A stretch of 64,000 bases of DNA from a bacterium. GTDB lineage: Bacteria; Armatimonadota; JACIXR01. The position numbers and the translations under genes were made by a program. The stretch lies in NCBI GenBank assembly GCA_014360495.1, contig JACIXR010000002.1, forward strand, positions 124,001 through 188,000, given 5' to 3'. Shown here in pieces: positions 4,393 to 26,866 of the stretch (its first letter is position 1; every line of letters begins with the position of its first letter). A model generated the notes under the pieces. That model was given only the letters and a program-made list of their open reading frames with translations. It did not search any database and was not told the DNA's origin.

Positions 4393-5162
4393 TGGATGAA
4401 TTCAGGGAAAACGAGTTAGCGGTCCTCTACGATAGCAGAGGGCGAAGGTATCTTATAACCCTTAAGGAGGGTGGTATGTTTCATTATCACGGTGGAGTGG
4501 TAGCCCATAACGATATAATCGGCAAAGGGGAAGGGCAGGAGATATCATCTTCCCTGGGAAACAAATTGCTCGTCTTTCGTCCCACATTGGAAGAGTATAT
4601 TCTGGAGATGCCACGAGGCGCACAAGTTATGTATGCTAAGGATTGCGCCCTCATATCTGCTTACGCCGATATCAAGCCATCCGATAGAATAGTGGAAGCG
4701 GGAACGGGCTCAGGAGCTCTCACTCTTTTCCTCTGCCGGCAAGCGAACCAGGGAATCGTTTATACTTATGAGATAAGAGAGGATTTCGCTGAAATAGCTA
4801 GGAAAAATTTGGAAAGATGGGGCGTTAAAAATTTTGTTTTAAAGATAAAGGACATATCAAAGGGAATAGACGAAAAAAATGTGGATAAGGTCGTATTGGA
4901 CTTGCCCGAGCCTTGGATAGCTATAAAACCAGCGAAGGATGCATTACGAGCGGGAGGTTTTTTCGTTTCTTTTCTCCCCACTATACTACAAGTGCATCGC
5001 TTGGTTTTATCTCTAAAGGAAATCGGTGGTTTTTCTCACTTCAGGGTTGTGGAATCGCTTGTCCGCCCTTGGGTTATTGAAGAGAGAATAGCGAGACCGG
5101 AGTTAAGGATGGTAGCTCACACTGGATTCATAGTCATAGCAAGGCGTTTAGAAAGTGGGTAG
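4392..5162 (+). CDS. trmI: tRNA (adenine-58-N1)-methyltransferase TrmI
   Basis: SAM-dependent enzyme forming m1A58 in the T-loop of tRNA, a modification important for tRNA stability at high temperature. The 256-aa protein has the small N-terminal beta domain seen in TrmI and then a Rossmann methyltransferase. The SAM motif is VEAGTGSGALTLFL (about 97-110), with YTYEIREDF after it and the catalytic-region motif VVLDLPEPW near 176. The preceding MPRGAQVMYAKDCA segment is typical of TrmI. It starts within the TAATG overlap with apgM and ends the rightward gene run; the next gene is convergent. Confidence 0.92.
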   Translation: MDEFRENELAVLYDSRGRRYLITLKEGGMFHYHGGVVAHNDIIGKGEGQEISSSLGNKLLVFRPTLEEYILEMPRGAQVMYAKDCALISAYADIKPSDRIVEAGTGSGALTLFLCRQANQGIVYTYEIREDFAEIARKNLERWGVKNFVLKIKDISKGIDEKNVDKVVLDLPEPWIAIKPAKDALRAGGFFVSFLPTILQVHRLVLSLKEIGGFSHFRVVESLVRPWVIEERIARPELRMVAHTGFIVIARRLESG

Positions 5163-5184
5163 CAAGAAGTGATAAATTGAATTA

Positions 5185-7089
5185 TTATCCCCAAAAGTGG
5201 TAGATTCGCCAGTCAAGTAGTATACCCAAGATATTAGCTAAACTGCCCACAGTGAACTCGCCAAGTATCAAGCCGAAGAAGAAAGGCAAAGCTGTTCGGT
5301 ATCCCTTCAACCCCGTAGTTTTTAAGATGATGAATTTCGCCAGCCAAGCAATGAAAATGGGGAACCACATCAAATTCATACTCCAAGAGGATGACACAGC
5401 GTATCCAATTGGATGGCAAGGCCACCAGAAGAAAGTTGTCTTCATAAATATGAGGAAAAGGCAAACGGCGAAACCTACGCCCGTGAAGATAGCGCAGAGG
5501 TCGTCCCTTTTCGTGGGAGTCTCTATCCAAGAGGATAGCCTATTGTAGGGCTCCCAGCCAAACCACACTCGCATTTTCGCAGAGGTAATCCCAATCCTGT
5601 AGCATAGGTCTAATAACGCCCAAAAGGCAACGAGGGAGCCCAGGAAGCTTGCCAAAAGCATTATCCACATAAATTTCTTCGGGTTTATATCCAACCTCTC
5701 CGCTATCTTAAATCCTTCAATCTGGTGCGGCATCGGATGGGAACGATATGCCCTATTGAAGCCCCAGTAGAGATTGAGAACGGTTAGGTTTCTGGGGGAA
5801 ATGTTCTCCACTCCCCATATTCTGGTAATCATCTGGTCAGGTCCAGCAAAGTGGAGGTCATGGACGGGCGAGCCAAGTTCAGCCCTTATCCTTGCCACAG
5901 CTATTGAGAGTATGAAGAAGATTCCTAAGGCTGTAAGAGAGATACCCCAGCTCATACCCGCCCTCACGAAAAGATAGGAAGCCAAAGGAAAACCAATTAA
6001 TATGCCGATTATCGCGGTTCTGTAGGACATCGGCTCATCGGAATCGTCCAACTCCGATTTCATCCCCAGCGCCTTCTTGAACACTTCCTTCAAATAATGC
6101 CTCGCTACCCATATAACAAAGAAGGTAACCCCTATATACGCCCCCGCTGATTGGTCGTTTATGTAAGGCATGTCCGGCCTACCAACATGTAAATTAAAGG
6201 CAACACTGAATATCCTTTGGAATTTCCAATACCAATAAAAGAACCAACAGGAAAAGGAGAGGTCAACGGGAAGGAGGAACCCAAGCCCTATGATGCAGGG
6301 AAACAGAGCAAGTGGAGTCCAACCTATAGCGTTCCAAGGTGGAGTCGTAACGTATTGACCTAAGTCGTAATCCCTTATAGGTATGTGGGGAATGGCGGGG
6401 AAATTGGCGTTGATGTTGTTTATGATGTCCACTAAGGAAGCAATGGCAAATCCTATCCACATCAATCTCTGCTTGAAGAGTGTGAAGTTCTCATCCGTCA
6501 TAGCCAGTGGCAAAAGAATTATCGGGAAGGTAAGCCTCTCCCTTTCCGTCCATTGCTTGCGAAAGATTACGTTTATGCACATCATCAAGAAAATAAGGAC
6601 CATAAAGAAGCCGGTCCAGATGAGAATGACTGGAAGCCAAGCAAGGATATGTTCTTTTGTATAAAAGCTTGACCAACCCATAAAGTACCCTTCCAAGATG
6701 TTCTTATCCGATACCATCAGCCACTTCGGGAGATATTTAAAGAAGAGAGTCTCCCATTTGTTTTCCGGCGTTGCATACCAGAAGGGATGGGTAAGGCAAG
6801 CTATGAGAACTTGATACATATCATGCCCCACCATGCAGGAACCAAGCGCCAAGATGGTATAGATAACCATCAGCTCGCCCTGAGTGAACATATAACGCGG
6901 GGCAAATTTCTTTAGTAAGAAGTTGATGAGAAGAAGGAAGAGAAGAGTGAAAACGACATTGAAGAAGAGGGACATCGTGGTAGGATGACCTGTATAAGTT
7001 ACTTTTTCCATATAGGCAACCCACCAAGAATTGAGAGGCATCAAGAGGATAGCTATGAGAACCGCTCGGAAAGTTATCGCTCTCTTCAT
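5185..7089 (-). CDS. DUF6785/DUF6784-family polytopic membrane protein, copy A
   Basis: A 634-aa integral membrane protein with many hydrophobic helices (about 12). It begins MKRAITFRAVLIAILLMPLN and carries HPTTMSLFFNVVF and the conserved ARIRAELGSPVHDLHFAGP segment typical of this uncharacterised family. No enzymatic or transporter motif is recognised. It is almost the same as copy B (8976-10889): the central 1,069 bp show no differences, whereas residues about 500-575 differ (KMRVWFGW here, KVVGPATWFGW in B). Copy A follows the GH39-like gene by 69 bases, so it is the last gene of the B-GH39-A run. A transport role for the hydrolase products is inference from context. It is convergent with trmI. 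Confidence 0.85.
   Translation of the reverse strand: MKRAITFRAVLIAILLMPLNSWWVAYMEKVTYTGHPTTMSLFFNVVFTLLFLLLINFLLKKFAPRYMFTQGELMVIYTILALGSCMVGHDMYQVLIACLTHPFWYATPENKWETLFFKYLPKWLMVSDKNILEGYFMGWSSFYTKEHILAWLPVILIWTGFFMVLIFLMMCINVIFRKQWTERERLTFPIILLPLAMTDENFTLFKQRLMWIGFAIASLVDIINNINANFPAIPHIPIRDYDLGQYVTTPPWNAIGWTPLALFPCIIGLGFLLPVDLSFSCWFFYWYWKFQRIFSVAFNLHVGRPDMPYINDQSAGAYIGVTFFVIWVARHYLKEVFKKALGMKSELDDSDEPMSYRTAIIGILIGFPLASYLFVRAGMSWGISLTALGIFFILSIAVARIRAELGSPVHDLHFAGPDQMITRIWGVENISPRNLTVLNLYWGFNRAYRSHPMPHQIEGFKIAERLDINPKKFMWIMLLASFLGSLVAFWALLDLCYRIGITSAKMRVWFGWEPYNRLSSWIETPTKRDDLCAIFTGVGFAVCLFLIFMKTTFFWWPCHPIGYAVSSSWSMNLMWFPIFIAWLAKFIILKTTGLKGYRTALPFFFGLILGEFTVGSLANILGILLDWRIYHFWG
5867..6935. 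repeat. Direct repeat block, copy A (no differences from 9667-10735)
   Basis: I compared these 1,069 bases line by line with 9667-10735 at a constant offset of 3,800 and saw no difference, including synonymous positions. The flanks of the same genes do differ (for example 5768-5805 against 9568-9605, and 6936 onward). There are no inverted terminal repeats or transposase, so this is not an insertion sequence. Recent duplication followed by local divergence, or ongoing gene conversion, would explain the pattern. Confidence 0.9.
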
Positions 7090-7110
7090 AGGTTCTTAAA
7101 TCCTTTATTC

Positions 7111-7141
7111 TTCAATATATTTGAACAAGCTTCAAGGGAAA
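7111..7141 (-). pseudogene. Remnant of the 3' end of a sugar-isomerase gene, duplicated with copy A
   Basis: Read on the minus strand, this stretch aligns with the last eight codons (ending VEAWSKI-stop) of the isomerase gene just upstream of copy B. GAAGCTTGTTCAAATATATTG here matches GAAGCTTGGTCAAAAATATAG there, and the following spacer (GAATAAAG then CCTATGAAGAG) is also shared. It therefore appears that the segmental duplication carried the isomerase tail along. It is too short to be coding now. Confidence 0.45.
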
Positions 7142-7158
7142 TAAAATAAATAGCTCAC

Positions 7159-8979
7159 TTAGGTTTTTGGTGGTGCAATAAGCTCTAAGAGAGCAACGCT
7201 ATTCGGTAGGAGAAGCGTGTGGATTTCCCACCTATTGCGCTTGGGGATTTCCCCTTCATATGTGCATTCAAGCTTCCTTACCGAGGCATCATGGAAAAGA
7301 TTATTGTGCTTCGCATCTACGAGATATAGCCTGCTCTTCCCTCCCCAAAGATTCTTGGGCAGCGGGTTTATAATCAAGTTCACCCTGCGTGGGATACCAT
7401 AGCGCTCGGGGAAGTGGACAAGCATAATCGTCATTCTTCTTCCTTTATCGTCGGAGGAAGCTATTGCACATATATCTTCGTCTCCTCCTATAATCTCCAA
7501 TCTTTTCTTCTCCATCATCGCAAATAATTGGTAAACGAAAAATGAAGGCTTGGGAAGATTGTCTCCCATTAAAAGACTCCAGCTTCCCCTAAATCTATTA
7601 TCCCCATCCTTGACATAAAAGAAACATAAAACATCTATTCCCGCGGGAATCGCAGCCCTAATCACATTATTCGCTACCCAGGAAGCACCTATTTCGTTGT
7701 CTTGTGAGAAATCATGCCACCAAGCGTAGTTAAATTCCGTGATGAAGAACCCTTTAACCCTTCTTTTAACGGACGGATATTTGTTCAGCAATGCTTTAGT
7801 CTTTTCCACTTCTTCTATATATACTTTCGGCGGGTGGAAATATTCGTGCCAAGTAATGAAATCAAGGGGGAGATTCCTCTGGGCACAGAATCTAATCAAT
7901 CCTTCCATGAAGGTTTCGCCATTCACACAATAGGGTCTTTCAGGGGAATAATCCCAAGGTCCAGAAGCATTGCAAGGTCCACCTATTAAAGCTTGAGGGT
8001 CCGCCCTTTTAATTCCCCTCACAGAAGCTTCGTAGAGTTTGAGATAAGCCTCTAAATGACTTTCCCCTGGAGGCGGTTTAAGCCATCCCGCATTAGCCTC
8101 ATTCCAAACCTCCCAATATCTCACCCTTCTCCCTCTCTCAATACACCTTTTAGCAGCTCTATAGCACAAATCCTCCCATAGCTTGTAGCTTTTAGGTGCG
8201 CTGTGGCGGTCGGGGTCAGGGATAGCGTCAAAGGGGATGGGCATATATGAAAGGCATAAAATCGGTTCAGCCCCAATCTTATATATGAAATCCACCCGCC
8301 TATCTAAATCCGACCAATCATAGATTAGCTTTCCGTTTTCCTCCCTAACCACAGATGTCAAGACGTTGTCCATCCTGAAAAATCGCGGATGTAGGGGCAA
8401 AAGAGCTTCTGCTGTCTCGGGATTATAATCAGGCATACCACCACCCTGAGATAAACCCGCTAAAGGGCGTGGCAAATCTCCCTTAATTTTTCTTGGATTG
8501 ACATAAATATAGCAGGGCTTTTCCACCTTTTCTTTCCTAAGCACCTTCAGCTCGGCTTGGTCGAATCCCACCTCCTTCTCCCCTTCTACTGGTCCGAAAA
8601 CTTTGATTTCAACTAAATGCCTTTCCCCCGGAATTGCTTTCCTCGTTAGAAGTGCCGCCCCAGGGTGGTCGTTATCGTATCTTGATTGCAAATTGCCGTC
8701 AACATAAATCTCCCCTCCCTCGGAGGTGGAGATATAAAGAGCAACAGGACAGCCCTTAGTTTCCTTGCCTTCTATCCTCGCTGGGATGTTTATCCAAACC
8801 CTTAGCCATCCCTTTTCTCCTTCCTTCATTTTGAATTTAGCTCCAGGCTCAACATTTCTCCATCTCTCTTCCCCTTCCTTACGCCAGAGCCATGTGATTT
8901 CCCTTTGGGCATCAAAGACGAGGGGATTCAGGATGAGAAGGAGAAGAAAAAGTAGAAGGGAACCCGCTTTCCTTATCAT
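7159..8979 (-). CDS. Secreted GH39-like glycoside hydrolase
   Basis: A 606-aa exported protein with an N-terminal hydrophobic signal (residues 4-22). A beta-rich region with lectin-like character covers about 25-160, and a TIM barrel of the clan GH-A type follows. The likely acid/base is Glu294 in YWEVWNEANAGW, and the likely nucleophile is Glu415 in FFITEFNYAWW. The arrangement resembles GH39 beta-xylosidases and iduronidases, but substrate cannot be read from sequence. Its ATG overlaps the stop of DUF6785 copy B by 4 bases, so the two are translationally coupled. A second DUF6785 copy follows 69 bases downstream. Confidence 0.82.
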   Translation of the reverse strand: MIRKAGSLLLFLLLLILNPLVFDAQREITWLWRKEGEERWRNVEPGAKFKMKEGEKGWLRVWINIPARIEGKETKGCPVALYISTSEGGEIYVDGNLQSRYDNDHPGAALLTRKAIPGERHLVEIKVFGPVEGEKEVGFDQAELKVLRKEKVEKPCYIYVNPRKIKGDLPRPLAGLSQGGGMPDYNPETAEALLPLHPRFFRMDNVLTSVVREENGKLIYDWSDLDRRVDFIYKIGAEPILCLSYMPIPFDAIPDPDRHSAPKSYKLWEDLCYRAAKRCIERGRRVRYWEVWNEANAGWLKPPPGESHLEAYLKLYEASVRGIKRADPQALIGGPCNASGPWDYSPERPYCVNGETFMEGLIRFCAQRNLPLDFITWHEYFHPPKVYIEEVEKTKALLNKYPSVKRRVKGFFITEFNYAWWHDFSQDNEIGASWVANNVIRAAIPAGIDVLCFFYVKDGDNRFRGSWSLLMGDNLPKPSFFVYQLFAMMEKKRLEIIGGDEDICAIASSDDKGRRMTIMLVHFPERYGIPRRVNLIINPLPKNLWGGKSRLYLVDAKHNNLFHDASVRKLECTYEGEIPKRNRWEIHTLLLPNSVALLELIAPPKT

Positions 8980-10889
8980 CCCCAGAAATGATAGATTCGC
9001 CAGTCAAGTAATATACCCAGGATATTAGCTAAACTGCCCACAGTGAACTCGCCAAGTATCAAGCCGAAGAAGAAAGGTAAAGCTGTTCGGTATCCCTTCA
9101 ACCCCGTAGTTTTTAAGATGATGAATTTCGCCAGCCAAGCAATGAAAATGGGGAACCACATCCAACTCATGCACCACGAGGAGGAAACCGCATAGCCAAC
9201 CGGGTGGAAAGGCCACCAGAAGAAGGTTGTCTTCATAAATATGAGGAAAAGGCAAACGGCGAAACCTACGCCCGTGAAGACACTGCAGAGGTTGTCCCTT
9301 TTCGCGGGAGTCTCTATCCAAGAGGATAGCCTATTGTAGGGCTCCCAGCCAAACCAGGTAGCGGGACCAACCACCTTTGCTGAAGCGGCTCCAATCTTAT
9401 AATACAGGTCTAATAGCGCCCAAAAAGCAATGAGCGAGCCCAGGAAGCTTGCCAAAAGCATTATCCACATAAATTTCTTCGGGTTTATATCCAACCTCTC
9501 CGCTATCTTAAATCCTTCAATCTGATGCGGCATCGGATGGGAACGATATGCCCTATTGAAGCCCCAATAAAGGGAAAGGACTGTGAGATTTTGGGGTGAG
9601 ATGTTCTCCACTCCCCATATTCTGGTAATCATCTGGTCAGGTCCAGCAAAGTGGAGGTCGTGAGCAGGCGAGCCAAGTTCAGCCCTTATCCTTGCCACAG
9701 CTATTGAGAGTATGAAGAAGATTCCTAAGGCTGTAAGAGAGATACCCCAGCTCATACCCGCCCTCACGAAAAGATAGGAAGCCAAAGGAAAACCAATTAA
9801 TATGCCGATTATCGCGGTTCTGTAGGACATCGGCTCATCGGAATCGTCCAACTCCGATTTCATCCCCAGCGCCTTCTTGAACACTTCCTTCAAATAATGC
9901 CTCGCTACCCATATAACAAAGAAGGTAACCCCTATATACGCCCCCGCTGATTGGTCGTTTATGTAAGGCATGTCCGGCCTACCAACATGTAAATTAAAGG
10001 CAACACTGAATATCCTTTGGAATTTCCAATACCAATAAAAGAACCAACAGGAAAAGGAGAGGTCAACGGGAAGGAGGAACCCAAGCCCTATGATGCAGGG
10101 AAACAGAGCAAGTGGAGTCCAACCTATAGCGTTCCAAGGTGGAGTCGTAACGTATTGACCTAAGTCGTAATCCCTTATAGGTATGTGGGGAATGGCGGGG
10201 AAATTGGCGTTGATGTTGTTTATGATGTCCACTAAGGAAGCAATGGCAAATCCTATCCACATCAATCTCTGCTTGAAGAGTGTGAAGTTCTCATCCGTCA
10301 TAGCCAGTGGCAAAAGAATTATCGGGAAGGTAAGCCTCTCCCTTTCCGTCCATTGCTTGCGAAAGATTACGTTTATGCACATCATCAAGAAAATAAGGAC
10401 CATAAAGAAGCCGGTCCAGATGAGAATGACTGGAAGCCAAGCAAGGATATGTTCTTTTGTATAAAAGCTTGACCAACCCATAAAGTACCCTTCCAAGATG
10501 TTCTTATCCGATACCATCAGCCACTTCGGGAGATATTTAAAGAAGAGAGTCTCCCATTTGTTTTCCGGCGTTGCATACCAGAAGGGATGGGTAAGGCAAG
10601 CTATGAGAACTTGATACATATCATGCCCCACCATGCAGGAACCAAGCGCCAAGATGGTATAGATAACCATCAGCTCGCCCTGAGTGAACATATAACGCGG
10701 GGCAAATTTCTTTAGTAAGAAGTTGATGAGAAGAAGAAAGAGAAGAGTGAAAACAACATTGAAGAAGAGGGACATCGTGGTGGGGTGCCCAGTGTAGGTT
10801 ATCACTTCCATATAGGCGACCCACCAGGAATTGAGAGGCATCAAGAGGATAGCTATGAGAACCGCTCGGAAAGTTATCGCTCTCTTCAT
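8976..10889 (-). CDS. DUF6785/DUF6784-family polytopic membrane protein, copy B
   Basis: A 637-aa paralogue of the 5185-7089 protein, three residues longer owing to KVVGPATWFGW in place of KMRVWFGW. Most of the remaining differences cluster around residues 480-580 and at residues 28-31, while the middle of the gene has no nucleotide differences from copy A. The clustered differences include FHPVGYAVSSSWCMSWMWF here against CHPIGYAVSSSWSMNLMWF. It lies 19 bases after the sugar isomerase and overlaps the GH39-like start by 4 bases, so it sits in one operon with both. Function is unknown; pairing with a secreted hydrolase suggests a part in carbohydrate use. Confidence 0.85.
   Translation of the reverse strand: MKRAITFRAVLIAILLMPLNSWWVAYMEVITYTGHPTTMSLFFNVVFTLLFLLLINFLLKKFAPRYMFTQGELMVIYTILALGSCMVGHDMYQVLIACLTHPFWYATPENKWETLFFKYLPKWLMVSDKNILEGYFMGWSSFYTKEHILAWLPVILIWTGFFMVLIFLMMCINVIFRKQWTERERLTFPIILLPLAMTDENFTLFKQRLMWIGFAIASLVDIINNINANFPAIPHIPIRDYDLGQYVTTPPWNAIGWTPLALFPCIIGLGFLLPVDLSFSCWFFYWYWKFQRIFSVAFNLHVGRPDMPYINDQSAGAYIGVTFFVIWVARHYLKEVFKKALGMKSELDDSDEPMSYRTAIIGILIGFPLASYLFVRAGMSWGISLTALGIFFILSIAVARIRAELGSPAHDLHFAGPDQMITRIWGVENISPQNLTVLSLYWGFNRAYRSHPMPHQIEGFKIAERLDINPKKFMWIMLLASFLGSLIAFWALLDLYYKIGAASAKVVGPATWFGWEPYNRLSSWIETPAKRDNLCSVFTGVGFAVCLFLIFMKTTFFWWPFHPVGYAVSSSWCMSWMWFPIFIAWLAKFIILKTTGLKGYRTALPFFFGLILGEFTVGSLANILGILLDWRIYHFWG
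9667..10735. repeat. Direct repeat block, copy B (no differences from 5867-6935)
   Basis: Partner of the 5867-6935 block. It covers roughly the N-terminal two thirds of the DUF6785 gene except for its first 150 or so bases, which have diverged. Two near-adjacent exact repeats over 1 kb are also a site where short-read assemblies can mis-join or collapse. Confidence 0.9.
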
Positions 10890-10908
10890 AGGCCCTTACA
10901 TCTTTATT

Positions 10909-11832
10909 CTATATTTTTGACCAAGCTTCAACGAAAATTCGCTTGGCACCAGCGAGAACGACTTCGGGAATTTGCCCGGGTAGGGGCTTTATCTCAAAGG
11001 AAATGACTGGTAAGCGGGTAGGCACGCTCCTCTTTAGATACCCTATGTATATAAGAGCTTCAAGAAAAGCCCTCAACTCATCAACTCCTATTTCCCCACC
11101 CTCGACCTCGAATGGAGGATGATTATCTCCATATAAAGGACTTTCCCTATTCAAAACACAGTTCCCTATATGAATATGTATTAGATAATCCGAAACGGAG
11201 ATTAGCGCCTCGTGGGGTTTTTCCCTGAGAAGGGGAAGGTGGGCAAGGTCAAGGGTCAGCCCGAAATTGCTGAACTCCTTTTTGATTTCCTCCGCTATTC
11301 TCCCCGCTTCCTCCGAAGGACCTATAAGGAATCTCTTGTCTATATCTCTATCAAAATTCTCAAGAGAAATAGTGACTATGTTTTCCTCCCCTTTTTCTTG
11401 GGCGTAGGCACAAAGCTCTTTAAGGGAAGCTATCAGCTTTTCCCTCGCCTCTTCCCTCACTTCTTCCCCCGGGTCCCTACCGCTGCAGACGGCAAGAATG
11501 CTAGCTCCAATCTTATAGGCTATATCTATGTTTCTTTTTGAGATTTCAATCGCTTTATTCCTCTCAGCTTCATCTAAACTGCAAAGGCTAACGCCTGCTT
11601 CCAATAATGAACTTTGCCCAGCGTAAATCACATCCATATGAGCCGATTTCAAGATGTCCCCTACTTTTTCGGCTAACTGAGGAGTCAGATTTGACACCTC
11701 TATTGCTCCGAAGAAATCATCTTCCACAATACTTTTTATTGTGCCAATGACCTCTTCTTCCCTTCTCAGATTGGGATATGCCATTGAATGGACTATCCCG
11801 ATATTCACCGCGCCTATCCATAAACGCTCCAC
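10909..11832 (-). CDS. Sugar phosphate isomerase/epimerase-like TIM-barrel protein
   Basis: A 307-aa protein of the xylose-isomerase-like TIM-barrel (AP-endonuclease 2) superfamily. Metal-site regions visible are VTISLENFDRD (Glu in the central strand), LTLDLAHLPLL and LIHIHIGNC, with a C-terminal VISFEIKP. Family members isomerise, epimerise or dehydrate sugars and cyclitols. The start is GTG 11832, with GGAGGTGAT whose TGA is the stop of the upstream fusion gene. Close spacing to the MFS/SpeE gene (6 bases) and DUF6785 copy B (19 bases) indicates one operon. The upstream IolB-like gene hints at cyclitol or uronate substrates, but that is inference. Confidence 0.75.
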   Translation of the reverse strand: MERLWIGAVNIGIVHSMAYPNLRREEEVIGTIKSIVEDDFFGAIEVSNLTPQLAEKVGDILKSAHMDVIYAGQSSLLEAGVSLCSLDEAERNKAIEISKRNIDIAYKIGASILAVCSGRDPGEEVREEAREKLIASLKELCAYAQEKGEENIVTISLENFDRDIDKRFLIGPSEEAGRIAEEIKKEFSNFGLTLDLAHLPLLREKPHEALISVSDYLIHIHIGNCVLNRESPLYGDNHPPFEVEGGEIGVDELRAFLEALIYIGYLKRSVPTRLPVISFEIKPLPGQIPEVVLAGAKRIFVEAWSKI

Positions 11833-11838
11833 AATTAA

Positions 11839-14196
11839 TCACCTCCTGAGATTTTTGAATCTATAAAGTTCATTTAATACATCATAATTGATGCTTTTGT
11901 AAAGCCATTTGGGCGCTGAATATTCTATCAAGGGAAGGTCATCCGTGTTGATGGGATATCCATTGCAGAATTGAAGCACTGTGTTATCAGCCATTAAAAA
12001 TCCCCATAAGACATCCTGGGCGCCTCCTATTCCTATCCTCTGCAAGCTCTCCTTTATCTCAGGATTTTCCCTTATTTTCTTTTCTATTCTCTCCAATGAT
12101 AGTTTCAAGGGCTCATTTGAACAGATGACCAACACATCGGCATAAATGGGTGGATAGTTCCAAAGAGACACTGAAGGGAAAACAGAACAAACGGTGGCAA
12201 TCATACCTTTGAAATCGCTTAGAGAGGTTATATAAGCGGGTATCCAAAGGGCAAAGATTCCTCCTTTGTTCAGGTGTTCCTTAACTATCTGATAAAATTC
12301 TCTCGTGAAGAGATTTCCTAAACCCGATATCCAGGGGTTTGATGGTTCAGATATGATGCAATCGTATTTTTCCTTTGAAAGAAATAGGAAATTGCGCCCA
12401 TCTTCTATCACGATGCGTGTCCTTGGGTCCTTCCAATACTCGTAGTTGACCTCCTTGAAGAATTTGGAAGCTTCAACCATAGCTGGTTCAATCTCGGCGC
12501 AGACTACCTCGTCAACTGGATGGCGGAGAGCGGCTCCCAGGGTGCATCCGCTTGCCAACCCGATTATCATCACTTTGCGAGGATGCTCATGAAGGAGCAA
12601 AGGCAAGTGAGCTACCATATATTGGGTAGTCAAGTCAATAAAGGAAGAGGCTTCAGTTTTCCCGTCCATTTGCAAAGCGCGAACAACTTTACCCTCATAT
12701 TCTCCCTCGGTAACCGTGATTGTTGAGGTAATGCTATCCTTATAATAGATAATCTTGCGTCCCTCCATCATCTCAATCGCAGAGCGGAGAGAGCGTTTCT
12801 CCAGGTAGTAGGGAGCATAGAGATAAACTCCGCTCGTCAACCTTTCAATGTTCCAGCGAAAGGGAATAAGCGCGAAGAAAAGCACCGCTCCGAAGATTCC
12901 CCAAGCTTCTTTTATGCTCCTTGGGGAGACTTCTCTCACTCCCCTGAGCATAATCCCACCCGCAATGATGTTGAGAAGGGAAGAGATTATTATTATTCCC
13001 GCCGCGCCCACTAACTTCATCAAAAAGAAACCAGCGAAGAAGGAACCGAGGATATTCCCGAGAGTGTTAAAGGCATAAACCTTCCCCACACCGCCTGCGA
13101 ATTGTTCCCTGCTTCTCAATGCTATCCTCGTTGCTATTGGGAAGGAGGCACCGAACAAGGAGGTGGGGATGATAAGGATGAGAGAGCAGATGATGAATTG
13201 GGTTAAATAAAAGAGATAAAAGCTACCACCGGTATATTTGAATAGCCAAAGAAAAACGATTGGAAGAAGGTCTATAAGGCGGGAGAAAAGAAGGGCGGTA
13301 AAGCCAGCTCCCATCTCTATGTAGGCGAGGAGAAGTGGAAGGTTTTTAACCCTTTCAATATAGCGCGAGATAAGAGCACTTCCAATGACAATGCCTAATA
13401 GAAACGAAGCAAGCATAGTCGTAAAGGCATAGGTGGTTATCCCGAAAACCATATGTAGCGCCCTTGTCCACGCTACCTCTAAAGCCATTGCGGAAAAACC
13501 GGAAATCCCTATAACAAGGGTCGCTAATTTAGCTGTTTCGGATGAATAGATTACGGGAGCTTGAGAGATTTCCTCTTCTCTCGCTTCCGCTACCCTATTA
13601 AGGAAGATAGAGAGAAAGAACACAAGGAAATTGAGGAAGACAGCGATTTTTATCGTATGGGATATGCCAAGATAGGGCATTAGCACAAAACCTGCTAAAA
13701 GGGTTCCTACAACAGCTCCGCTGGTGTTAACTGCATAAGCAACGCTGATGTCTTTTCCCGCTTCGCTTATCTTAGAATAACCCGAGGAAAAAGCGGGAAA
13801 GGTTCCTCCCATTAGGAAAGTAGGTGGTAGAAGAACGAGAATAACGAGAGCGAGCCGAAGCAATGCCAATCCCAACTGGGAATCTTGAAGAGAAGGGTAA
13901 AAGCCTCTATAAAGAAGGGAGATATGGGAAAGGAGAAAGGGGACCAAAAGGCATAAAACCCCTATCCCACCTTCCAGAATGCCATAGAAAAGGAGAGGAG
14001 ACTTCACTTTATCCGCGACCTTGCCGAGAACATAGCTTCCCAGCGACATGCCACCCATAAAGACGATTAAAACCGTGCTTATCGCTAAGGCAGAGGTACC
14101 AAACACCAATCCAAGCATCCTTGACCACACCACTTCATATATGAGACCCGCACAACCGGAGAGGAAGAAAAGCACAAGCCAGATTCGCCTTATCAT
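11839..14196 (-). CDS. MFS-like transporter fused to a spermidine-synthase-like domain
   Basis: About 785 aa. The N-terminal ~470 residues hold numerous hydrophobic helices with MFS-like stretches (FGTSALAISTVLIVFMGGMS; LMGGTFPAFSSG). The C-terminal part is a Rossmann aminopropyltransferase-like domain: IIGLASGCTLGAAL, EVVCAEIEPAMVEA, IEDGRNFLF and IISEPSNPWISGLGN. Such fusions are widespread, but the substrate is unknown and the classical SpeE glycine motif is altered. The start chosen is ATG 14196, in an ATGA overlap with the IolB-like stop and directly before the first helix; ATG 14211 is an in-frame alternative adding five residues. Confidence 0.8.
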   Translation of the reverse strand: MIRRIWLVLFFLSGCAGLIYEVVWSRMLGLVFGTSALAISTVLIVFMGGMSLGSYVLGKVADKVKSPLLFYGILEGGIGVLCLLVPFLLSHISLLYRGFYPSLQDSQLGLALLRLALVILVLLPPTFLMGGTFPAFSSGYSKISEAGKDISVAYAVNTSGAVVGTLLAGFVLMPYLGISHTIKIAVFLNFLVFFLSIFLNRVAEAREEEISQAPVIYSSETAKLATLVIGISGFSAMALEVAWTRALHMVFGITTYAFTTMLASFLLGIVIGSALISRYIERVKNLPLLLAYIEMGAGFTALLFSRLIDLLPIVFLWLFKYTGGSFYLFYLTQFIICSLILIIPTSLFGASFPIATRIALRSREQFAGGVGKVYAFNTLGNILGSFFAGFFLMKLVGAAGIIIISSLLNIIAGGIMLRGVREVSPRSIKEAWGIFGAVLFFALIPFRWNIERLTSGVYLYAPYYLEKRSLRSAIEMMEGRKIIYYKDSITSTITVTEGEYEGKVVRALQMDGKTEASSFIDLTTQYMVAHLPLLLHEHPRKVMIIGLASGCTLGAALRHPVDEVVCAEIEPAMVEASKFFKEVNYEYWKDPRTRIVIEDGRNFLFLSKEKYDCIISEPSNPWISGLGNLFTREFYQIVKEHLNKGGIFALWIPAYITSLSDFKGMIATVCSVFPSVSLWNYPPIYADVLVICSNEPLKLSLERIEKKIRENPEIKESLQRIGIGGAQDVLWGFLMADNTVLQFCNGYPINTDDLPLIEYSAPKWLYKSINYDVLNELYRFKNLRR

Positions 14197-15002
14197 CCGC
14201 TGGTCACCCATTCATGTGTGGGGTCATTTATGGGAATCAAGCGCCTTTCCTCTCCAGCTAAAATCCAGAGATAATAAAGGAAGTAGCCCGGGGCAGAAAC
14301 AACGGGGTGATATCCTTTGGTGATTATCACGCTATCTCTGTTTTCAATGACCAATGCTTCGTTAAGGGTTAAATCGTCGTCGTAAAGCCTCATAAGGGCG
14401 AAGCCTCCCTCAGGTTGAATTCGAAAGTGATATACCTCTTCTAACCAAATTTTTTGGGGTGGGTTATGTTCGTCGTGTCTATGGGGAGGGTAGGAAGACC
14501 AATTGCCAGGCGGGTTGAAGGTTTCACCCACCAATAACCTTTCTGCGGGGATGTCTTCCCTCAATACATCGTGAACCTCCCTGAAGAAGTTATCCCTTCC
14601 CACTTTCCTTACCCTTACATCTTCCGGCTTTATCACCACTGCTTCGCTTTTAATTTTCGCGGGCGCGAAGCAGAGGGCAGCCTCAAAATCCTTTTCCGCG
14701 AAGACGGAGAACTCGCTATTTGGAGGAATATACAGGGCATAAGCTTTCTCCTCAAAAACGTTTTTTCTCTCTCCGAGGTAAAAGGTTTTACCTTTATAAT
14801 CCACTTTTACTTTCCCTTTCAAAAGGAGGAGTAAGCATTCCTTTCCCTTCGTGGATACATCGTGCTTCCTTCCCTCCTTTAGGGAAAGAAGGGAGAGTTC
14901 TATATACTTCAAAGGAGGGGTGCCCATAGGCGGGCGAACGATTGTTATGTATTCTTTCTCTTCTTGATTTTTTCCTTTTACGAGTAAGTCATCACGAACC
15001 AT
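14193..15002 (-). CDS. IolB/KduI-family isomerase (5-deoxy-glucuronate isomerase-like)
   Basis: A 269-aa bicupin. The IolB/KduI metal-binding pattern is clear: YPPHRHDEHNPP, then LEEVYHFRIQPEGGFALMRL, then TKGYHPVVSAPGYFLYYLW. IolB converts 5-deoxy-glucuronate in myo-inositol breakdown and KduI acts on pectin-derived uronates. No other inositol gene is recognised in the window, so the physiological substrate is uncertain. There is no Shine-Dalgarno before ATG 15002, but a promoter with its -10 ten bases upstream suggests a nearly leaderless mRNA. It heads the operon leading to the DUF6785/GH39 genes. Confidence 0.82.
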   Translation of the reverse strand: MVRDDLLVKGKNQEEKEYITIVRPPMGTPPLKYIELSLLSLKEGRKHDVSTKGKECLLLLLKGKVKVDYKGKTFYLGERKNVFEEKAYALYIPPNSEFSVFAEKDFEAALCFAPAKIKSEAVVIKPEDVRVRKVGRDNFFREVHDVLREDIPAERLLVGETFNPPGNWSSYPPHRHDEHNPPQKIWLEEVYHFRIQPEGGFALMRLYDDDLTLNEALVIENRDSVIITKGYHPVVSAPGYFLYYLWILAGEERRLIPINDPTHEWVTSG

Positions 15003-15012
15003 ATTGTAAAAT

Positions 15013-15041
15013 AGTTTAAGCAGAAGTTGATTTTAAAGCAA
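15013..15041 (-). promoter_or_regulatory. Promoter for the IolB-like operon
   Basis: On the minus strand, TTGCTT (15041-15036), a 17-bp spacer and TAAACT (15018-15013) lie 10 nt before the ATG at 15002. The intergenic gap is only 54 bp and no ribosome site is seen, consistent with a transcript starting within a few bases of the start codon. Confidence 0.5.
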
Positions 15042-15056
15042 TAAATTTCTTATTAG

Positions 15057-16913
15057 TTATTCCTTGAGAATTTCTTTCGCTGATTGATAAATGCCTTCCG
15101 GCGTTAATCCTAAAAGCTGAAGGAGCTCTTCCCTTTTCCCATGCTCAACGAACCCATCTATCCCAATAAATTTGATTCTAACATCGCTCAAACCCTTGCT
15201 AAAAAGGAGATGAGCTATCTGATAGCCAAAACCACCCTGGAGAATACCTTCCTCCACAACAAGCACCCTTTTAGTTCTTCCGATGCAGCTCAAAATCAAT
15301 TCCTCATCTATTGGTTTGACGAAACGGGGATTGATTAGAGTGGCTTTTACACCGTCCTTCTCCAACATCTCAACAGCAATCTCAGCGGAATGGACCATAC
15401 TGCCTAAAGCTATTATACACAAATCTTCACCTTCTCTTCTTACCTCGCCTTTTCCGATTGGCAAAATTTGGGGGTTGTCGTAAGGAACACCGATTCCCCT
15501 CGCCCGGGGGTAACGAATAGCAAAGGGGCGATTTGAATCTAAAGCGGTTTTTAGGAGGGAAGCCAATTCCCATTCATTGGCTGGAGCGGAGATGACGAGG
15601 TTGGGAATAGGGAACAGATAGGCAATGTCAAATAATCCCTGATGGGTTGCCCCATCTTCCCCCACTATACCCGCCCTATCTATAGCGAATACAACGGGAA
15701 GATTTTGTAGGCAAACATCGTGGATTATCATATCGTATGCTCTTTGAAGGAATGTTGAATAAATCGCTACAACGGGTTTGAATCCCCTACAGGCTAAGCC
15801 AGCTGCGAAGGTAACGGCACAACCTTCTCCCATCCCCACATCAAAGAAACGAGCTGGAAATTTCTTCGCAAAAGAAGAAAGTCCTGTGCCCAATGGCATA
15901 GCGGCTGTTATCGCTATTATCCTGTCGTCCTCTTCCGCTAATGCGACCAACGAATCAGCGAAAACTTCCGTGTAAGTGGGAGGGAACGGTGGTTCCAATA
16001 CTTCACCTGTTTCCAAATTGAAAGGAGGAACTCCGTGGAATTTCTCGGGGTTTGTTTCCGCAGGTGGGTAACCTTTCCCCTTCTTAGTAAATATATGAAC
16101 CAGCGTCGGTCCAGGGATGTTTTTCGCCCTTTGTAGTATCTCTATCAGAGCTTCAAGGTCGTGTCCATCAATTGGACCCAAGTAAGTGAAGCCCAATTCC
16201 TCAAAAATCATCCCTGGGATGAATATATGTTTAACAGCTTCTTTGAATCTCTGGAGACTTTCCCAAAGGGGCATCCCCAGCGGGATTCTCCTTAAAATGA
16301 ACTCCAAGTCCTCCTTGATTTTGAGGTAGCTGGGCTCAGTTCTTATGCGTGAGAGATATTCGGAAATGGCTCCTATGCTTTTGCTTATTGACATCTCGTT
16401 ATCGTTTAGCACCACGATGACCTTCTTCTTTAAATGCCCAATATTATTGAGCGCCTCCCAACTCAATCCGCCTGTCAAAGCGCCATCTCCTATAATCGCG
16501 ACGACTTCATAATCTCTTCCTTCTAAATCCCTCGCAACGGCGAAGCCGAGCGCAGCGGGTAGAGAGGTGGAAGCGTGTCCGGCTCCAAAGGCGTCGTGTT
16601 CGCTTTCGGAAAGTTTTAAAAATCCCGAGAGCCCACCCTTCCTCCTCAAAGTATCAAACCTATCTTTACGCCCCGTGAGAAGCTTATGGGCATAGGCTTG
16701 GTGCCCAACATCGAAAACGAGCTTGTCTTTGGGTGAATCAAAAACATAATGTAGCGCTACAATTAACTCAACCGCTCCCAAGCTCGGCGCTAAATGACCT
16801 CCGTTTCTTGCTACAACCTCTAAAATCCTCCCTCTGATATCTTCACAAAGGGAATATAAATCCGATATTGAAAGGCTCTTGATATCCTTGGGAGTGTTTA
16901 TCTTCTCCAACAT
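15057..16913 (-). CDS. dxs: 1-deoxy-D-xylulose-5-phosphate synthase
   Basis: Condenses pyruvate and glyceraldehyde-3-phosphate, the first step of the MEP isoprenoid pathway. The 618-aa length is normal. Visible signatures are GGHLAPSLGAVEL, FDVGHQAYAHKLLTGR, the thiamine-diphosphate motif GDGALTGGLSWEALNN followed by VLNDNEMSIS, and in the pyrimidine domain DRAGIVGEDGATHQG. The C-terminal domain ends VEHGKREELLQLLGL. It follows the CsgG-like gene after 8 bases and so may be cotranscribed with it. Confidence 0.96.
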   Translation of the reverse strand: MLEKINTPKDIKSLSISDLYSLCEDIRGRILEVVARNGGHLAPSLGAVELIVALHYVFDSPKDKLVFDVGHQAYAHKLLTGRKDRFDTLRRKGGLSGFLKLSESEHDAFGAGHASTSLPAALGFAVARDLEGRDYEVVAIIGDGALTGGLSWEALNNIGHLKKKVIVVLNDNEMSISKSIGAISEYLSRIRTEPSYLKIKEDLEFILRRIPLGMPLWESLQRFKEAVKHIFIPGMIFEELGFTYLGPIDGHDLEALIEILQRAKNIPGPTLVHIFTKKGKGYPPAETNPEKFHGVPPFNLETGEVLEPPFPPTYTEVFADSLVALAEEDDRIIAITAAMPLGTGLSSFAKKFPARFFDVGMGEGCAVTFAAGLACRGFKPVVAIYSTFLQRAYDMIIHDVCLQNLPVVFAIDRAGIVGEDGATHQGLFDIAYLFPIPNLVISAPANEWELASLLKTALDSNRPFAIRYPRARGIGVPYDNPQILPIGKGEVRREGEDLCIIALGSMVHSAEIAVEMLEKDGVKATLINPRFVKPIDEELILSCIGRTKRVLVVEEGILQGGFGYQIAHLLFSKGLSDVRIKFIGIDGFVEHGKREELLQLLGLTPEGIYQSAKEILKE

Positions 16914-16921
16914 CTCAAATT

Positions 16922-17842
16922 TTAGTGCTTCAAGGAAGGCAAGGAGACCAAATCATCCTGGCGAATGCTGAGAGATTCGGAAAGAATCTCTCCCTTCGCT
17001 TTATCCGCCCTAACCTCGGTTATCTTAACCTCTCCTATCTTCGTTTTATCCACCCAAACTATATTTCCGCTTTCGTCTTTTATAGGATGAATCCTGTAGA
17101 CCTCTAAAACCATCCCCACTTTAATCCCCGCTTGAGCTCCTATATCCAATATCACTGTTTTCTTTTCCCTCGCTAATATTTTGCCTTGGGGAGAGAAAAG
17201 GAAGGAAAATTTCCCTATTGCGTTTTTCACCGCCTTTCTGGTCGCCTTGGCGAAGGAACTTTCTTCCCATTCCTTTGATTCCGTCCCCACGCCAGCTATC
17301 CACTTATCTAAGTCCGTGCCCACTCCAACCGAGAAACTTCTCTGCTTCTCTTCTCCTTCCCCAGTATCAGCGAAAAATATCTTACCCGTAGCGACATCTA
17401 TTATTCGGTAGTCAAACTTGACCCTTGCTATGCTTACCTTCCTCGCTCCGCCTCCGAACAAGTTCTTGAGAAACCCCAAAATTCCTCCCTTCTTTTCCTC
17501 TCTTATTCCAAATTCCGTTATTGTTCCCGTGAGAATGTAATCAACCCCCAGGAGCTTTCCCACCTTCACAGCGGTTGAGGGGTCAATCATCCCTCCTTCC
17601 CCAAGCTTTATCTCCTGCATTATCTCGTTTAGTTTGCTTCTCTCAATGACATCAAAACAGCCCATCTGAACAAGGGAAGTGACAAACATCTCGGAAACGA
17701 TTTTCCCTAAATTAGCAGTTCTTACAAGCTGGCTATCAAAGGGGATGACCGCAATCCTTTTCTTGCCCATGGGAATGGATTCCTGAGAAAAGCAAAGAGG
17801 AATTAGAAGAAGTAAAAACAAAAGAAAACGGAGTTTCCTCAT
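16922..17842 (-). CDS. CsgG/FlgT-like secreted protein
   Basis: A 306-aa exported protein with signal peptide MRKLRFLLFLLLLIPLCFS. The CsgG-type core is KRIAVIPFDS, VSEMFVTSLVQMGCFDVIER, and VGKLLGVDYILTGTITEFG (about 93-111). A C-terminal segment from about 225 (LDIGAQAGIKVGMVLEVYR) resembles the small beta domain found at the C-terminus of FlgT-like proteins. CsgG itself is an outer-membrane secretion pore, but there is no obvious lipobox here, so a periplasmic or outer-membrane accessory role is more likely. Its start overlaps the preceding small secreted-protein gene by 4 bases. Confidence 0.72.
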   Translation of the reverse strand: MRKLRFLLFLLLLIPLCFSQESIPMGKKRIAVIPFDSQLVRTANLGKIVSEMFVTSLVQMGCFDVIERSKLNEIMQEIKLGEGGMIDPSTAVKVGKLLGVDYILTGTITEFGIREEKKGGILGFLKNLFGGGARKVSIARVKFDYRIIDVATGKIFFADTGEGEEKQRSFSVGVGTDLDKWIAGVGTESKEWEESSFAKATRKAVKNAIGKFSFLFSPQGKILAREKKTVILDIGAQAGIKVGMVLEVYRIHPIKDESGNIVWVDKTKIGEVKITEVRADKAKGEILSESLSIRQDDLVSLPSLKH

Positions 17843-21750: not shown

Positions 21751-22887
21751 ATGGGATTAGTTGACTTGCGTGAACAAGCAAGGAGAAGAACGCCGGAAGA
21801 GCTTTTGGAACACCTTAAAAGCTTCCATCTCGATTTGAAGTTCTCTGCCGGAGTTTGGTTCTTCTCTCCCTCCGGTGGTAGATTCCACGATAGATACACG
21901 CCCCCTATGTCTATGGAGGAAATATTTGAGAAAGCACAGGGCTTGATGAAGTATGGATTGAAGGGTTTGGAAGCTCATTATCCAAACGAGATTGGCGAGG
22001 ATAACCTTGACCTTTGGAAGAAATTTCTCAAGGATAGCGGTATGAAGTTGGTGGGTATAGCGGCGAACATCTTTTATGAGAGCAGGTTTAAATTCGGCGC
22101 TCTTTCCTCGCCTCTTCCCGAGGTTAGGCGAGTTGCCATTGAGAGAGTGAAGGAGACTTTAAGGCTTGTGAAGGAGTTGGATTGCGATTTCGCGATAATC
22201 TGGCCGGGAATAGATGGCTATGAGAACAATTTCGGAATAGATTTTCAAGCTATGCGGGCGAGATTTGCTGAGGGAATAGCAGAAGCTATGGACGCTGTTC
22301 CCGGCGTGAGGATTGCCTTTGAACCAAAGCCTTACGAGCCAAGGGGAAGGATAATTTACGGCACTACAAGCGAGGGAATCCTCTTGGCTTTAAGAGTGGA
22401 AAGCCTTCTGAAATCCTCTCCAAATAGAGAACTCCTTGAAGAGGGACACTCGCTTGTTACTTTGAATCCCGAAATGGGTCATATCTTGATGGGCTATGAG
22501 GACCCTCCCTACGCTTACAGCCTGGTAATGGAATACGGGAAGCTCGCTCATACCCATTGGAATAGCCAGCCTTTGGGCAACTATGACCAAGACCTAAATG
22601 TTGGCGTCATCTCACCCGAGCTCGCGGAGGCTACACTTTATGTAATGAAGATGCACGGATACAGAGGATACTTCGGCATAGATATAAATCCTGAGCGAAT
22701 GCCGGTCGAGAGGGCGATTATAAATTGCATAGACGCGATAAAGGCTATGAACGACCGGATAGAGGCTTTAGACCACGAAAAAATAATCTATTATACCCTC
22801 CACCCAGATAAGGCGGAGGGATTATTAGAAGCTCTACTGATTAGAGCTCGTGCTCCCTATCCGGAAAAGCTCTCGCCCTTAGATTAA
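21751..22887 (+). CDS. Xylose-isomerase-like TIM-barrel sugar isomerase
   Basis: A 378-aa member of the xylose isomerase-like superfamily, close to true XylA in length. Metal-site motifs visible are VRIAFEPKPYEPRG (Glu and Lys), LVTLNPEMGHILMGYEDP (Glu, His), AHTHWNSQPLGNYDQDLNVG (metal Asp pair) and YFGIDINPERMP. The N-terminal KFSAGVWFFSPSGGRFHDRY is an active-site loop. The substrate could be xylose, rhamnose or another aldose. The start is ATG 21751 after AAAGGAGGAG. It is convergent with the next gene and overlaps it by 9 bases. Confidence 0.82.
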   Translation: MGLVDLREQARRRTPEELLEHLKSFHLDLKFSAGVWFFSPSGGRFHDRYTPPMSMEEIFEKAQGLMKYGLKGLEAHYPNEIGEDNLDLWKKFLKDSGMKLVGIAANIFYESRFKFGALSSPLPEVRRVAIERVKETLRLVKELDCDFAIIWPGIDGYENNFGIDFQAMRARFAEGIAEAMDAVPGVRIAFEPKPYEPRGRIIYGTTSEGILLALRVESLLKSSPNRELLEEGHSLVTLNPEMGHILMGYEDPPYAYSLVMEYGKLAHTHWNSQPLGNYDQDLNVGVISPELAEATLYVMKMHGYRGYFGIDINPERMPVERAIINCIDAIKAMNDRIEALDHEKIIYYTLHPDKAEGLLEALLIRARAPYPEKLSPLD

Positions 22888-23682
22888 GAGCTCCTTCGCC
22901 CGCTTAATTGCCTCCTTGCAGACCTCCAGCGGAGGTCTTGATTGATGGATTGGGTTGAATATTTCTATGGAAAGCCATCCACCGTAGCCGATTTTCTTTA
23001 AGTTAGCTATGAGCTCTTTAAGGGGGGCTTTCCCTTCGCCAGGCAATACCCTATCAGCGTCGCTCTGCTCCTCCAGCGCTTTATCGGGGGAGATGTCGTT
23101 GAAATGCACCAATGCTATCCCCTCGCCCGGCAGAGAAAGGAGGTCCGCTGGGGTTCCTCCTCCTTTCAAAAGATGAAAAACATCCACGATTACTCCACCA
23201 TTTTCGCAATTGGCTTCCTTCACTATCTCGTAGGCGGAAATCGGGTTATTGATTCCTTTCCTCATCCCGAGAAATTCAAGCCCCATAATTAAGCCCCATT
23301 CCTTCCCCATCTCGCAAAGCTCCCTGTAATCCTGAACGCTTCTCTCCAAAGGAGCCTCCGCTTCCCAAGCCACGGGACATACAAGAACGCTCCTCTCTAT
23401 CCCTATCCCTCTACACATTTCCCCTATCTTTTCCACTTCTTCCTTCACACCGCTCTTGTCATCAACTAAATGCCATCCGCCCAAAGCGCATATCTCGGGA
23501 ACCTCAAGATTAAATTCCCTTAAAAGATTTCCGATTTCCTCAAGGCTGCCACCTTGGGAGATGAATTCATCCACATCCGATACCCACAAGCCTACTCCTT
23601 CAAATCCACTTTCCGCTATCGCTTTCAATCTCTCCGGGAGAGGGTCTTTCCTCAAGCTGACCAAATTCATAGATAACCGCAT
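22879..23682 (-). CDS. Sugar phosphate isomerase/epimerase-like TIM-barrel protein
   Basis: A 267-aa TIM-barrel protein of the xylose-isomerase-like superfamily. Landmarks are LIMGLEFLGMRKG (Glu), GGVIVDVFHLLKGGG (Asp, His), IALVHFNDISPD (His, Asp) and YGGWLSIEIFNP (Glu), a typical metal-site set for hydroxypyruvate isomerase or inosose dehydratase relatives. Start choice: ATG 23688 touches the GGAGGT ribosome site, whereas ATG 23682 has a 7-base spacing, so the latter is preferred. It follows the DapA-like aldolase by about 16 bases and likely shares its operon. Confidence 0.8.
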   Translation of the reverse strand: MRLSMNLVSLRKDPLPERLKAIAESGFEGVGLWVSDVDEFISQGGSLEEIGNLLREFNLEVPEICALGGWHLVDDKSGVKEEVEKIGEMCRGIGIERSVLVCPVAWEAEAPLERSVQDYRELCEMGKEWGLIMGLEFLGMRKGINNPISAYEIVKEANCENGGVIVDVFHLLKGGGTPADLLSLPGEGIALVHFNDISPDKALEEQSDADRVLPGEGKAPLKELIANLKKIGYGGWLSIEIFNPIHQSRPPLEVCKEAIKRAKELLI

Positions 23683-23698
23683 TGCCATACCTCCTTCC

Positions 23699-24628: not shown

Positions 24629-24641
24629 TTGAAAAACCTCC

Positions 24642-24670
24642 TTATCAAGGGGTGTTGCTACTATTATAGT
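24642..24670 (+). promoter_or_regulatory. Promoter for the agarase-like gene, overlapping a divergent promoter
   Basis: TTATCA (24642-24647), 17 bp, TATAGT (24665-24670), then 10 nt to ATG 24681 with no ribosome site. On the opposite strand a TTTACC-17-TATAAT pair covers the same AT-rich dyad (around 24660-24680) and could serve the aldolase gene, which does have a GGAGG. Confidence 0.4.
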
Positions 24671-24680
24671 ATTATAAGAT

Positions 24681-26807: not shown

Positions 26808-26835
26808 TGACAAGGAGAGAGAAGGGATATATAAT
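26807..26835 (+). promoter_or_regulatory. Promoter of the Gfo/Idh oxidoreductase gene
   Basis: ATGACA (26807-26812, five of six consensus bases), a 17-bp spacer and TATAAT (26830-26835). The -35 begins at the last base of the preceding stop codon. The start codon at 26867 has AAAGGAGG, so this mRNA has a normal short leader. Confidence 0.65.
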
Positions 26836-26866
26836 AAGTTAAAAAGATAGAAAGGAGGTCTTTGAA

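Follow-up and report, generated by a model that had tools for sequence, protein, structure and literature searches.

The SusC/SusD polysaccharide utilization loci bring a hydrolase, a transporter and sugar enzymes together in one locus. The solved fold of the sodium/glucose-type (SGLT-type) symporters of the SSF family (PF00474) differs from the OPT-type fold. The latter is represented by barley YS1 (HvYS1; PDB entries 7wsr and 7wst), a member of the OPT family that is described in one account as a two-domain, proton-coupled symporter with an elevator-like movement (PMC9691689). Here, we examined a stretch of 64,000 nucleotides (hereafter the window) from a genome of the Armatimonadota, a phylum in which one member is described as having 117 enzymes with glycoside hydrolase (GH) domains (PMC12485897). 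Six open reading frames (ORFs) on the minus strand fill positions 5185–15002 of the window, and encode an IolB-like protein, a fused MFS/SpeE protein, a TIM-barrel isomerase, a GH39 enzyme and two copies (A and B) of a membrane protein with the domains DUF6785 and DUF6784. Our predicted models indicate that the DUF6785 proteins almost certainly have the OPT fold. We put the probability that the protein in the window imports the product released by the GH39 enzyme, whether a sugar, a sugar acid or a short oligosaccharide, at roughly 0.6, as judged from predicted structure and gene neighborhood.

Both copies in the window scored above the Pfam gathering score for the two domains (PF20581/PF20580), with 567 and 565 bits for DUF6785 (cut-off 25) and 109 bits each for DUF6784 (cut-off 26.4). 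An AlphaFold model of copy A, built from 66 aligned sequences, had a mean predicted local distance difference test (pLDDT) score of 94.1 and a predicted template modeling (pTM) score of 0.93. In a Foldseek search of this model against 350,542 PDB chains, the entries of barley YS1 were the only ones below an E value of 0.001 (7wst, 4e-8; 7wsr, 1.4e-7), and the VIA-align comparison with YS1 gave a Z score of 24.7 over 559 of the 637 residues at 4.0 Å, the next best match reaching 4.7. A second DUF6785 protein (L103:1592-3598), which is 30% identical to the window copy, was modeled from a separate, partly overlapping alignment with a pLDDT of 81.5, and again resembled YS1 (Foldseek 5.6e-10; Z 24.3 over 551 residues; next best 5.0). 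The OPT fold thus extends over the whole protein in both models, and the preliminary description of this locus, which had left the choice between a transporter fold and an unrelated enzymatic fold, is answered in favor of the former. Very probably, the DUF6785 and DUF6784 domains together make up one complete OPT-type secondary transporter, in which Pfam divides a single predicted fold. The relationship is a structural one as seen in these models, and a link at the sequence level was not found: the OPT profile PF03169 matched neither window copy at E<=0.1, nor any protein at E<=0.001 in nine genomes (0/9), though DUF6785 is present in all nine, and the PDB sequences yielded no YS1 or other OPT chain when searched with a profile built on 66 DUF6785 proteins.

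DUF6785 is widespread in the phylum, with matches in 34 of the 41 genomes sampled (3 to 28 in each genome where it is present, often 10–28) and none in 14 control genomes. The genome of the window (2.55 Mb in 18 contigs, 97% complete) contains 18 full-length copies and a broken one with in-frame stops (G000:C5:71789-72850, L054). In a collection of named genomes, the best 80 of 580 DUF6785 loci come mostly from Armatimonadetes and Poribacteria, and the closest relatives among these 80 belong to Armatimonadetes genomes (L055, 64% identity). A search of one paper library found no paper naming DUF6785, PF20581 or DUF6784; the family has been assigned no function so far, the OPT fold itself being already known.

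The evidence that DUF6785 and the hydrolase have a joint role, as had been suggested from their translational coupling, comes from the genomic distribution of the GH39 subfamily. Orthologs at E<=1e-40 were identified in 14 of 291 genomes, in a search that scored at most four candidates per genome, and DUF6785 is located within 3 kb of the GH39 gene in six of these 14 loci, where 0.58 were expected from the copy numbers and rounded genome sizes (P 9e-6). With related groups counted once, three of seven independent contexts are paired (P 0.0023). The six paired loci belong to three members of the genus of the window and to G007, G228 and G229. The GH39 and DUF6785 genes are divergent and 45 bp apart in G007, while in G228 and G229 a TIM-barrel isomerase gene lies 13 bp upstream of DUF6785 and the GH39 gene is 2.3 kb away. 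In a tree of 42 sequences, the DUF6785 partners fall into three separate clades, with well-supported branches that force three changes, which indicates about three separate origins of the pairing. In G229, the GH39-linked DUF6785 gene is directly followed by a gene for a 1091-amino-acid protein with no Pfam match (L192:14974-18249), and a gene of equal length (1091 amino acids) adjoins DUF6785 in G228 (L194).

Another genus offers a replacement of the transporter. In G236 and G237 (genus g131), a TIM isomerase gene lies upstream of GH39, and convergent with GH39 is a gene of the SSF symporter family (PF00474, E 5e-58 and 7e-57). Of these two symporters, the G237 protein was searched against the PDB, and its best solved relative is vSGLT, a bacterial sodium/glucose-type cotransporter (2xq2, E 2.7e-63). 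That family f17 would pair GH39 with SSF for want of DUF6785 was rejected, since G236, G237 and G239 have 9–11 DUF6785 matches; only G021 and G034 have none within this family. Pairing above chance in three settings, together with the swap for an SGLT-type symporter, favors a role for DUF6785 in the uptake of sugars or sugar acids at these loci. Attachment to the released sugar, which had been named beside uptake as a possible role, found no support.

The GH39 enzyme itself is well defined (PF01229, 92.2 bits; cut-off 26). Its nearest solved relatives are beta-xylosidases (PDB, E 1e-25), and it is weakly similar to alpha-L-iduronidase (E 2e-4). Two glutamates, Glu294 in a WNE motif and Glu415 in a TE motif, are invariant across 12 orthologs and align with the WNE and ITE motifs of the xylosidases; we take them to be the acid/base and the nucleophile of GH39, respectively. 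The orthologs in L195 and L200 were left out of this alignment, the former having been found by tblastn because a longer overlapping ORF had displaced the gene in ORF calling. By eye, the N-terminus contains a hydrophobic stretch resembling a signal peptide, and an N-terminal domain resembles the sugar-binding domains of GH2 enzymes in the PDB (E 0.004).

Likewise, the two candidate converting enzymes belong to sugar-related families. The IolB-like protein matched KduI/IolB with 278 bits, exceeded the cut-off of the IolB equivalog TIGR04378 (249.7 bits; cut-off 205) and resembled the IolB-like structure 2qjv (E 2.7e-42). The TIM-barrel protein matched AP_endonuc_2 with 85 bits and showed weak matches to IolO in NCBIfam and to ketose 3-epimerases and TM0416 in the PDB. 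If these two proteins act as converting enzymes, a sugar acid or a ketose is indicated. We hypothesize that the GH39 enzyme, if exported as its N-terminus suggests, would cut a glycoside outside the inner membrane to release a monosaccharide or a short glycan. DUF6785 would then carry this product across the inner membrane, perhaps by an ion-coupled elevator movement such as that proposed for YS1, and the IolB-like and TIM-barrel enzymes would isomerize or epimerize it into central metabolism. Copy B would be the same porter, encoded by a gene-converted duplicate specific to the lineage.

The ORFs, the families assigned by Pfam and NCBIfam and the tight packing of the six-gene cluster were all as the preliminary description had them (Table 1), save for its upper end, since no start codon lies at 15041 and the first one is at 15002. 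Going downstream, the junctions measure -19, +6, +19, -4 and +69 bp. The order IolB, MFS/SpeE, TIM, DUF6785, GH39 is retained in both further members of the genus that were examined (G001 and G002; 66–91% identity), each with a single DUF6785 gene. This five-gene core is constant across the genus while the upstream genes vary, and its conservation in both genomes argues that the grouping is not due to chance. A common start from one promoter is unsupported: a scan of positions 4900–17200 for sigma-70-type promoters gave 13 sites, below the mean of 17.6 in shuffled sequences, and dxs (15057–16913) is located 54 bp upstream of the operon on the same strand, as it also is upstream of the operon in G001 but not in G002. 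The statement that ABC and TonB uptake genes are missing nearby holds for the seven genes scanned with Pfam, to which the check was limited; these seven likewise include no SusC or SusD and no other iol genes (no genome search for iol genes was made).

Table 1. Genes of the GH39-DUF6785 operon and the basis of their assignment.
Feature	Position in window	Strand	Basis
IolB-like protein (5-deoxy-glucuronate isomerase family), 269 aa	14193..15002	-	TIGR04378, PDB 2qjv
Fused MFS-like membrane domain and spermidine-synthase-like domain, 790 aa	11839..14211	-	NF037959, Pfam Spermine_synth
TIM-barrel sugar isomerase/epimerase (AP_endonuc_2), 307 aa	10909..11832	-	Pfam
DUF6785+DUF6784 copy A, 637 aa; predicted OPT-fold secondary transporter, apparently the ancestral operon copy	8976..10889	-	Pfam, model, YS1 match, orthologs
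GH39-family glycoside hydrolase, 606 aa	7159..8979	-	Pfam, 12-ortholog alignment, PDB matches
DUF6785+DUF6784 copy B, 634 aa; putative derived tandem duplicate of copy A	5185..7089	-	97% identity, mosaic differences

The second DUF6785 copy does not behave as a conserved component. Copies A and B are 97% identical (84 of 1902 nucleotides differ), and the differences form a mosaic with one identical run of 1070 nucleotides. The orthologs of copy A in G001 and G002 are 88–91% identical to it, and copy B is absent from both operons; it is, judging from these sequences, specific to the lineage of the window among the three genomes of the genus. At sites that distinguish the copies but are identical in the two orthologs, the ortholog base is found in copy A at 34, in copy B at six and in neither at seven. 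The pattern fits a diverged duplicate of copy A that has been partly homogenized by gene conversion, and it is possible that the identical run is an assembly artefact.

Several observations weigh against an import of sugars by DUF6785. Peptides and metal chelates are known as substrates of OPT proteins, whereas sugars are not. Bacterial OPT proteins are treated as peptide porters in one source (PMC3924187). Furthermore, a DUF6785 gene is missing from the 3 kb around GH39 in eight of the 14 loci, and the swap for the SSF symporter is confined to one genus, where the SSF gene is convergent with GH39 and not on the same transcript. Kinase-like genes without a recognized transporter adjoin GH39 in G223–G226 (family f36; G224 at a contig end), the G225 gene, the sole one searched with Pfam, matching BadF/BcrA and ROK. 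In G239, DUF6785 is 9.1 kb from GH39, and in G220 the GH39 gene is on a contig of 4.5 kb. A rough hydropathy count marked the following products of the GH39 loci as polytopic: DUF6785, SSF, the MFS/SpeE fusion, a protein resembling Na/H exchangers and three others.

One alternative is that DUF6785, as an OPT-fold porter, carries peptides, metal chelates or solutes of another kind, and that its adjacency to hydrolases reflects genomes rich in such enzymes. We consider this unlikely for the copy in the window, although the wider survey lends it some weight. Our first impression from the neighbors of DUF6785 in the own genome, which include GH39, GH116-like, GH92, GxGYxYP, GH29 and GH31 proteins, was of a general link to hydrolases. 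Among immediate neighbors of at least 250 amino acids, strictly assigned GH proteins made up seven of 24, as compared to two of 30 random genes from the same genome (one-sided P 0.03); not counted were a GH43-like protein below cut-off (L050:7931-9013), a BNR protein (L049) and a beta-helix protein (L047), and L084 was left out of the neighbor sets because no DUF6785 ORF survived ORF calling. Among genes of at least 500 amino acids the figures were 5/8 near DUF6785 and 2/4 at random, so that gene length accounts for much of the excess.

In eight genomes, with DUF6785 fragments merged by eye, GH39 genes were found within 3 kb of DUF6785 in five of 18 cases (0.8 expected, P 8e-4); a single orthologous operon accounts for three of these five. 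Four other families were not enriched, which supports the peptide or chelate porter: GH2 (1/59), GxGYxYP (3/30), TIM (4/150) and URO-D (7/150), the last two among the best 150 or so matches each, and neither was the EF-Tu-family control (3/46). Matches below cut-off had been dropped before counting (5 of 23 for GH39, 3 of 62 for GH2), as had 50 of the 96 matches of the control, which were short or weak, the best 46 being used. In other families of the phylum many copies lack a recognized hydrolase next to them, as do most of those in G005, G019 and G023, among the few neighbors that were searched for families. The 60 genes adjacent to DUF6785 in 80 named loci, mostly of Poribacteria, were mixed and not dominated by hydrolases (in the Poribacteria, FG-GAP/ASPIC, PGA_cap, MR_MLE and PhyH), when set beside 60 of 404 distal genes that were looked over. 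In L051 (G000:C8), moreover, a copy is flanked on one side by the gene of a D-aminopeptidase (Peptidase_M55) and on the other by one resembling a phage terminase, which hints at peptides as the possible substrates of some copies. As a general rule, the pairing of DUF6785 with hydrolases therefore weakened under the controls for length and distance and was abandoned; of the families tested only GH39 is enriched, and most copies outside the genus stand alone. The peptide or chelate porter is nevertheless at odds with the pairing of GH39 above chance in three independent contexts, and with the sugar symporter of the SGLT type that stands beside the same GH39 in a different genus. As the family reaches 28 copies in a genome, it may also span several substrate classes, and both readings can hold for different copies.

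Other neighbors of DUF6785 were noted in the course of the survey. URO-D proteins (PF01208) have 22 to 38 matches per genome in seven of the eight genomes and none in G023, and several adjoin DUF6785 in the genus. They lie within 1.5 kb of DUF6785 in 6 of 60 cases in the own genus (P 0.013) and in 1 of 90 in the other five genomes; a general link was rejected for lack of the signal in these five. A URO-D protein, named by eye, is also encoded at 38086–39114 of the window. Two proteins of 700 amino acids with no Pfam match adjoin DUF6785 paralogs (L040:6801-8903 and L041:6249-8354) and possibly represent an unrecognized enzyme or binding family.

Yet another possibility is that the operon remodels the surface polysaccharide of the cell itself, the GH39 enzyme trimming exopolysaccharide and DUF6785 moving an envelope precursor or recycling fragments. 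GH39 includes envelope-acting enzymes, with PslG-type members that trim exopolysaccharide, and the SpeE-like and isoprenoid (dxs) genes are neighbors that would suit such a role. However, the nearest solved relatives of this GH39 are the beta-xylosidases, and the IolB-like protein, the TIM isomerases and the BadF/ROK-type kinases of family f36 suggest catabolism of a released sugar, which makes surface remodeling improbable. Least probable of all is that sugar uptake in this operon falls to the MFS half of the MFS/SpeE fusion and DUF6785 has another role: the fusion is polytopic and all three genus members retain it in the operon, but it belongs to the fused MFS/spermidine synthase family NF037959 (126.6 bits, cut-off 40; Pfam spermine synthase 81), its MFS_1 score of 28.6 is under the Pfam cut-off of 33.4, and tblastn did not find it in 10 other GH39 loci tested, in several of which DUF6785 or SSF is present. 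IolB was likewise not found by tblastn in these 10 loci, so that both genes look like additions of the genus of the window, and the fusion is probably accessory.

Outside the operon, genes assigned by eye suggest further sugar metabolism in the window. A second cluster at 21751–27901 encodes xylose-isomerase-like, TIM isomerase and DapA-family proteins, a secreted GH42-like hydrolase and a Gfo/Idh/MocA oxidoreductase; no sugar transporter adjoins it, and the next genes resemble the phosphate transport genes PstS/PstC/PstA. An 854-amino-acid secreted protein at 58762–61326 resembles a six-hairpin glycosidase that carries a discoidin-type (F5/8 C) domain at its C-terminus.

Import of the GH39 product by DUF6785 remains our favored hypothesis for this operon. 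A bolder extension is that DUF6785 is an unrecognized OPT branch that constitutes a main class of carbohydrate uptake in the Armatimonadota and Poribacteria, brought next to hydrolases on repeated occasions and exchangeable for symporters of the SGLT type; we regard this as possible but rather doubtful. In either case, a family labeled as of "unknown function", whose copies number in the tens per genome in phyla known chiefly from uncultured genomes, gains a fold and a testable job. If sugar uptake is true, the substrate range of the OPT fold would extend from peptides and metal chelates to carbohydrates, DUF6785 would to our knowledge be the first family of OPT-fold sugar transporters, and the polysaccharide-degrading Armatimonadota would gain a candidate uptake route.

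Compared to the described systems, the predicted fold of DUF6785 is shared with YS1 at full length, whereas the sequences are only 12–13% identical with no match to PF03169, and the genomic setting is one of hydrolases and isomerases rather than of metal uptake. In G236 and G237, the SSF symporter takes the place of DUF6785 next to this GH39 and a TIM isomerase, but it is not cotranscribed with GH39, and the SGLT structures gave no alignment to the DUF6785 models above background. The catalytic domain of the GH39 enzyme aligns with the beta-xylosidases 6yyh and 2bs9 over about 445 positions, including both catalytic glutamate motifs; the enzyme differs from them by the additional N-terminal sugar-binding-like domain and belongs to a distinct subfamily. 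Finally, the operon resembles the SusC/SusD loci in uniting a hydrolase, a putative transporter and sugar enzymes, with the difference that its transporter would be a single porter of the inner-membrane type.

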